A stretch of 64,000 nucleotides of DNA from an uncultured SAR86 cluster bacterium (GTDB taxonomy: Bacteria > Pseudomonadota > Gammaproteobacteria > Magnimaribacterales > D2472), in the NCBI GenBank assembly GCA_902558375.1, contig CACEDQ010000001.1:62001-126000 (forward strand), read 5' to 3'. This document shows positions 29,601-51,816 of the stretch, piece by piece. The position numbers and the translations under genes are program-made. Positions within the stretch are counted from its first letter, which is position 1. Each line of letters starts with the position of its first letter. A model generated the notes under the pieces. It saw only the letters and a list, made by a program, of their open reading frames with translations. It had not been told where the DNA came from and did not search any database.

Positions 29601-29649
29601 ATCGTTCATCCCTAGGGGACGGAAGTAGTCGCAAGACGAAGGAACGCAT
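29601..29649 (+). promoter_or_regulatory. glnA/glutamine-riboswitch-like aptamer, copy 1
   Basis: ATCGTTCATC-CCTAGGG-GACGGAAGTA-GTC-GCAA-GAC-GAAGGAACGCAT: CGTTC/GAACG closing stem and conserved GACGGAAGTA…GAAGGAACGC core. Confidence 0.85.
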
Positions 29650-29653
29650 TATC

Positions 29654-29705
29654 ATCGTTCATCTCGTAAGAGACGGAAGTAGGTAATGATACCGAAGGAA
29701 CGCAT
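29654..29705 (+). promoter_or_regulatory. glnA/glutamine-riboswitch-like aptamer, copy 2 (tandem)
   Basis: ATCGTTCATC-TC-GTAA-GA-GACGGAAGTA-GGTA-ATGA-TACC-GAAGGAACGCAT: same core, both internal stems changed with compensation. Confidence 0.87.
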
Positions 29706-29724
29706 CTTTTTAAAAGGAGATGTT

Positions 29725-29889
29725 ATGAATGCTTTAAACATTCAAAAAAAACAATACACACCTAAGTTAGGAAGCAATATTATGTTGCAAATTGCAATTA
29801 ATAAGCTTAACTACAACTTACGCTCACAAAATAAAACTGAGCATAAGTCAAAGCCTAAAAAGGATGTATTTTTCCCTTACTATTTGTAA
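29725..29889 (+). CDS. Riboswitch-associated small basic protein (54 aa)
   Basis: MNALNIQKKQYTPKLGSNIMLQIAINKLNYNLRSQNKTEHKSKPKKDVFFPYYL; strong RBS AAGGAGATGTT; ORF-track start at 29686 lies inside aptamer 2. Confidence 0.8.
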   Translation: MNALNIQKKQYTPKLGSNIMLQIAINKLNYNLRSQNKTEHKSKPKKDVFFPYYL

Positions 29890-29896
29890 GGTATAA

Positions 29897-29930
29897 ATTA
29901 AAAAAGAGAGCAGCTTGCTCTCTTTTTTTT
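29897..29930 (+). terminator. Rho-independent terminator
   Basis: AAAAAAGAGAGCAGCTTGCTCTCTTTTTTTT. Confidence 0.9.
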
Positions 29931-51594: not shown

Positions 51595-51816
51595 ACCAAC
51601 TTGATTCCGACTAACAATCAACTGCAGACGGGAGTTAGAGAGGTCAAGAAGGAAGAGCCCATAGGGTGAAAGCGTTTGTAAGAGTCGATGATAAAAAATA
51701 GCTTACAGACCCACCAAGAGTTCAGGAGAAAGAACTCGAGGAGCCAGAGAAAATCTCACTTTGGACCCCTAAGGAACTCGAACTTAAAGAAACAGAGCTA
51801 GTCTCTGTTTTTTTTC
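51595..51816 (+). ncRNA. Putative structured non-coding RNA (about 220 nt) ending in Rho-independent terminator
   Basis: Own promoter; hairpins CTTGA…CTAAC/GTTAG…TCAAG, GTTTGTAAG/CTTACAGAC, GAGTTC/GAACTC, GAGA/TCTC; terminator AACAGAGctaGTCTCTGTTTTTTTT; no plausible ORF. Confidence 0.75.

Follow-up and report, generated by a model that had tools for sequence, protein, structure and literature searches.

Organisation of the locus

The window, the whole 64,000-nucleotide stretch of SAR86 DNA analysed here, carries two aptamers, a ribosome-binding site (RBS), the gene of a 54-residue basic protein and a terminator-like hairpin in succession, in agreement with the dedicated mini-operon proposed in a preliminary description of the sequence. 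The features are as follows.

29601 to 29650, + strand: glutamine riboswitch aptamer 1 (RF01739), cmscan 61.7 bits, full length (1-53/53)
29654 to 29706, + strand: glutamine riboswitch aptamer 2 (RF01739), cmscan 63.6 bits, full length (1-53/53)
29702 to 29723, + strand: predicted expression platform hairpin masking the RBS, in which the five 3'-terminal bases of aptamer 2 and the UUUU after them (29702-29710) pair with AGGAGAUGU (29715-29723); -7.3 kcal/mol, z -4.8, equivalents in four other genera
29714 to 29719, + strand: ribosome-binding site AAGGAG, from sequence, mostly paired in the unliganded fold
29725 to 29889, + strand: gene of the 54-residue basic protein, a new SAR86 family with an invariant C-terminal FFPYYL; 11 genomes, dN/dS 0.03-0.19, no Pfam or NCBIfam match
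29900 to 29928, + strand: intrinsic-terminator-like hairpin, 13 bp with a U tract; -15.2 kcal/mol, z -4.6

The tandem glnA-type aptamers claimed previously are borne out by cmscan of the 64-kb window, in which both RF01739 matches are untruncated, have E-values of ~1e-11 and lie far over the gathering score of 35 bits. The closing stem and core of both conform to the consensus at all positions and P2 and P3 are paired by different bases, so that the identical core and compensated helices described earlier match the RF01739 alignment; the two consecutive modules likewise stand, but the Rfam boundaries leave 3 nt between them, not the 4-nt spacer first given. By score, core and P1-P2-P3 architecture we assign the two aptamers to the type-1 glutamine riboswitch (glnA, RF01739), and they are placed as a leader, the gene starting 19 nt past aptamer 2 with a plausible platform hairpin in between. 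No match to the type-2 Downstream-peptide model (RF01704) was found in the window, for which cmscan gave, of the two models, RF01739 only (its overlap filter acts within a clan, and none is listed). The tandem pair holds the only RF01739 sites in the window genome (1.0-Mb assembly, 72% complete). Elsewhere in the window, at 51600-51792, there is a strong match (196.7 bits) to IMES-1 RNA (RF02034), a marine structured RNA whose function is not established.

The composition claimed for the 54-residue protein, nine lysines, one arginine and two acidic residues, is confirmed from sequence. Because dN/dS is this low in 21/21 pairs within the genus and the protein is conserved in 10 other public genomes, the frame is, as judged by comparative sequence analysis, a real gene under purifying selection. 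Within the P3 loop of aptamer 2 a further in-frame ATG (29686) would extend the protein to 67 residues; that ATG has no ribosome site and the 54-residue start is preferred. The strong terminator described at the gene's end corresponds to the U-tailed hairpin at 29900-29928, which a simple terminator scan did not list, probably as its T tract is taken up by the hairpin stem.

Co-inheritance of riboswitch and gene

Relatives of the protein occur in 10 other public GTDB genomes, eight from SAR86, one a gammaproteobacterial single cell and one a gammaproteobacterial metagenome-assembled genome, which fits the gammaproteobacterium-like host suggested beforehand. Among 108 genomes of the family 11 encode it, seven in the genus of the window genome, one in genus g2 and three in g7, and in 11/11 the gene starts 16-19 nt past tandem aptamers; the homologue and synteny search that had been advised thus finds the reading frame conserved wherever the tandem RNA occurs at the locus. 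Identity drops across genera to ~40-46%, with KK and the C-terminal FFPYYL invariant. An epimerase gene lies downstream in five relatives of the same genus (G090, G094, G095, G096 and G099) and in g2, and the trmJ-side flank is also common to several of these. Two further genomes of the genus (G097 and G093) keep both the trmJ and epimerase flanks and are missing both the aptamer motifs and the reading frame. Present together and absent together, the riboswitch and its gene thus behave as a single unit. RF01739 is common in the family (51/108 genomes), and on this sequence evidence we conclude that its presence in the window genome is not an isolated acquisition.

A predicted translational switch

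The platform hairpin comprises 9 bp, with GCAUC at the 3' end of aptamer 2 pairing with the GAUG that follows GGA of the RBS, and 0/200 shuffles are as stable. Equivalent hairpins are found in genera g1, g2, g4, g5 and g7, the upper stem being varied yet paired (UUUU/AGGA, UUGC/GCAG and UGCC/GGCA), and GCAUC...GGAGAUG is kept in the g2, g4, g5 and g7 relatives, the exception being G047 in which GCAUC has become GCUUC. As the CAUC/GAUG base of the hairpin is invariant in most sequences, there is no covariation at that position. When the middle bases are shuffled, 4-23 of 300 shuffles are as stable for g1, g2, g4 and g5; in g7, where the hairpin is short, 64-65 of 300 are, i.e. it is no better than shuffles. 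The g4 and g5 hairpins have unusual stability, yet by prediction they leave the RBS no less accessible than it is in shuffles.

With P1 of aptamer 2 forced to close in an extended form, two A-U pairs longer, the RBS becomes more accessible, its mean unpaired probability going from 0.22 to 0.47; with the five-pair P1 forced alone, the RBS hairpin stays almost intact. Switching would therefore hinge on the proposed P1 extension and on whether the ligand-bound fold holds the conserved C that follows P1. In the glutamine aptamer structure this C is engaged in the ligand-bound fold, and it is the same base that the RBS hairpin needs. No terminator is present between aptamer 2 and the gene. An alternative pairing of P2 of aptamer 2 (CAUCUC) with GAGAUG is not kept in g7, which has CAUCCUC with the same GGAGAUG, and the hairpin of the 3' tail is preferred; coupling of the two aptamers by pairing between their P1 strands has a predicted probability of 0.03.

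The switch model is well supported at the level of sequence. Alongside the complementarity and co-inheritance observed, we infer glutamine binding and the direction of switching. When glutamine is absent, aptamer 2 would use its GCAUC tail to pair with AGGAGAUG and mask the RBS; with glutamine the aptamer would close the P1 region and keep the conserved GC-AU at its tail, leaving the hairpin incomplete and allowing the 54-residue protein to be made. Two serial aptamers would be expected to sharpen this response.

Other genes behind the same aptamers

In g5, g7, g8 and g9 these aptamers stand before genes of DUF4278 proteins that score above the cut-off or close to it; in another family of the order RF01739 precedes a comparable small YRG protein. 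Cargo differs even within a genus: in g7 the gene behind the tandem aptamers encodes the 54-residue protein in three genomes and a DUF4278-like protein in a fourth (G050), and in g5 the protein is DUF4177-like or DUF4278 depending on the genome. By gene position the 54-residue protein is thus assigned to a small-protein slot under glutamine control that takes several different cargoes. Before DUF4278-like YRG proteins in g8, g9 and the second family of the order, RF01739 carries an insertion of ~80-100 nt, mostly in P3 (L091:1722-1875, L094:1712-1855 and L097:1501-1637).

Larger genes are also preceded by these RNAs. A single glutamine aptamer stands before a ~480-residue protein with a MGVTFRVYDNNKLIDREWPLDL motif (L012-L014, L016, L017, L029, L030 and relatives), which we take to be possibly a circularly permuted ATP-grasp enzyme; its 90-residue N-terminal piece has no significant Pfam match. 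In another small gammaproteobacterial genome (G393, L096:1501-1552) a glutamine aptamer precedes a gene that by eye is glutamate-synthase-like, and in G138 tandem aptamers (L098:1501-1623) precede a 468-residue GS-I-like gene. In genus g3 (G002-G011; L003-L011 and L043-L054) genes for glutamine synthetase (GS), TonB-receptor-like and Gcw_chp proteins lie behind one to three aptamers, and leaders of these unrelated genes (L015, L045, L048-L053, L005 and L010) share a second hairpin, GUUAAAC...GUUUAAC, and a conserved UCCUGCAG, which may form a common expression platform. G138 has an element similar to this hairpin and UCCUGCAG.

Nitrogen-control genes of the family

GlnE was found in 0/108 genomes of the family, whereas PII is present in 98/108 and GlnD in 88/108. 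Where found, GS is a single gene, mostly an open frame of ~320-365 residues, a length that would be typical of GSII, and the g3 copy matches Gln-synt_N. GlnD and PII are kept in the genomes that encode the 54-residue protein, so glutamine sensing is not vacant there, which counts against our main model. All these absence calls come from incomplete genomes, but a pattern across a whole genus is unlikely to be chance: in g3 GlnD is missing from 10/10 genomes and PII from 8/10, and one or two glutamine aptamers precede GS in 8/8 genomes where the gene is visible. Because of this combination the riboswitch may have taken over protein-based glutamine sensing in g3.

The 54-residue protein and its possible target

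The protein has no Pfam match (E up to 1) and no NCBIfam match, and the best hit of a PDB profile search has an E-value of 0.79. PHROGs and PADLOC gave weak scattered matches that are not common to most family members, and a phage origin was set aside as the protein has no relative in IMG/VR contigs. Structure prediction from the 11-member alignment gives a central helix (residues 15-41) of good confidence with loose ends (mean pLDDT 71, pTM 0.35), a model too weak for a fold search. DUF4278 (PF14105), which forms the N-terminal domain of IF17, is matched neither in the protein (Pfam, E up to 1) nor elsewhere in the genome.

In cyanobacteria glutamine aptamers mainly precede DUF4278 genes, including that of the GS inhibitor IF17, and three conserved arginines of IF7/IF17 are needed for GS inhibition (PMC6316151). 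These arginines are absent here, the window protein having one arginine and the conserved basic residues of its family being lysines, and the Pfam and NCBIfam searches, without a match to inactivating-factor families, uphold the earlier view that the protein does not resemble IF7/IF17. The glutamine-sensing circuit with a small basic protein, also proposed earlier, gains support, as the same aptamers in relatives drive DUF4278 proteins, the cyanobacterial IF17-type partner.

A nitrogen-regulatory role is suggested by the genomic position behind glutamine aptamers. Under nitrogen plenty the basic helix with its hydrophobic C-terminal tail would probably bind and tune some component of nitrogen assimilation, a role modelled on the DUF4278/IF17-type proteins found under this riboswitch in cyanobacteria and in relatives, and by this analogy GS or the PII network would be the candidate target. 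In a narrower form of this proposal, the protein would be a tuner or inhibitor of nitrogen assimilation that evolved independently and docks its FFPYYL tail on a SAR86 GSII-type GS or PII partner, achieving by protein-protein contact what GlnE achieves in other gammaproteobacteria, as a non-homologous counterpart of cyanobacterial IF17 under the same RNA sensor; we regard this form as rather unlikely.

Alternative explanations

Our overall reading, on balance the probable one from the sequence comparisons, is of a tandem type-1 glutamine riboswitch that switches on, at the level of translation, a small regulatory protein, which in turn probably tunes nitrogen assimilation under plenty. The ON switch could be real and its protein still have no nitrogen-assimilation target, acting instead on ribosomes, RNA or the membrane depending on nitrogen supply. 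A lysine-rich basic helix without a family match would suit RNA or membrane binding, and in other SAR86 genera the aptamers precede TonB-receptor-like (by eye) and Gcw_chp genes for which a nitrogen role is not obvious; however, the small proteins behind the cyanobacterial riboswitch include an established GS inhibitor (PMC6316151), and an invariant FFPYYL suggests a specific partner, not bulk charge. We regard this alternative as rather doubtful, though the most serious of those considered.

An OFF switch, or transcriptional action, by which the protein would be made under glutamine scarcity and aid scavenging, is improbable at this locus: the 3' end of the aptamer itself forms part of the RBS hairpin, which aptamer closure therefore opposes, and a terminator is lacking between aptamer and gene. 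The GS genes behind the same aptamers in g3, and the GS-I gene in G138, are where repression by glutamine would be expected, and because of this both switch directions probably exist in this group; the g3 GS leaders, though, bear a different hairpin after the aptamer. That the aptamers have lost glutamine binding or sense another ligand, leaving the leader as a conserved structured 5' UTR only, is very improbable: the two copies agree with the consensus core at practically all conserved positions, their P2 and P3 stems pair through differing bases, and the aptamers are maintained across genera.

Relation to known glutamine riboswitches

The riboswitch class is already known. The glnA motif is on record from marine samples and cyanobacteria, in some cases as tandem copies, before PII, GS, glutamate synthase and ammonium transporter genes (PMC2864571); a 2018 review held glutamine riboswitches to be restricted to cyanobacteria (PMC6316151), and marine phages carry them (PMC9004378). 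Our literature search found no paper linking SAR86 to a glutamine riboswitch, and the host lineage, the 54-residue protein family and the SAR86 regulon appear undescribed in the literature searched.

Glutamine activates expression through both the gifB type-1 riboswitch of Synechocystis PCC 6803 and a Prochlorococcus type-2 riboswitch (PMC6316151). The gifB (IF17) system resembles the SAR86 locus in its RF01739 aptamer, the small basic protein downstream and glutamine activation, shown there and predicted here; it differs in that SAR86 is a heterotrophic gammaproteobacterial host with tandem aptamers and a protein that has neither DUF4278 nor detectable sequence relation. The type-2 RNAs (RF01704) of marine picocyanobacteria likewise place a glutamine aptamer before a tiny reading frame in a streamlined marine bacterium, but the window RNA is RF01739 and the picocyanobacterial peptides are DUF4278 proteins. 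Closest to home, the DUF4278-like YRG genes of the same family or order (G030, G031, G036, G050, G054, G057 and G064; G283) share RF01739 and a similar gene size and position, yet have another protein family and another leader hairpin, several with the long aptamer insertion. The OM43 phage Melnitz (PMC9004378) offers another non-cyanobacterial example of this aptamer class in a marine gammaproteobacterial setting, but there it is phage-borne and adjoins ssrA, whereas the SAR86 54-residue protein has no viral-contig relative.

Significance

The 54-residue protein fills a known slot for glutamine-induced small proteins with a new cargo. Glutamine riboswitches form a regulon in SAR86, among the most abundant heterotroph groups of the surface ocean, with outputs that vary by genus: the 54-residue family, DUF4278 and DUF4177-like proteins, glutamine synthetase and outer-membrane-type proteins. 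Within a genus, unrelated small proteins have been swapped behind a single RNA sensor, a natural experiment in the evolution of riboswitch targets. If our reading is true, a glutamine-induced small protein would be a direct answer to how SAR86, with GlnE absent from the genomes examined, achieves fast restraint of glutamine synthetase.
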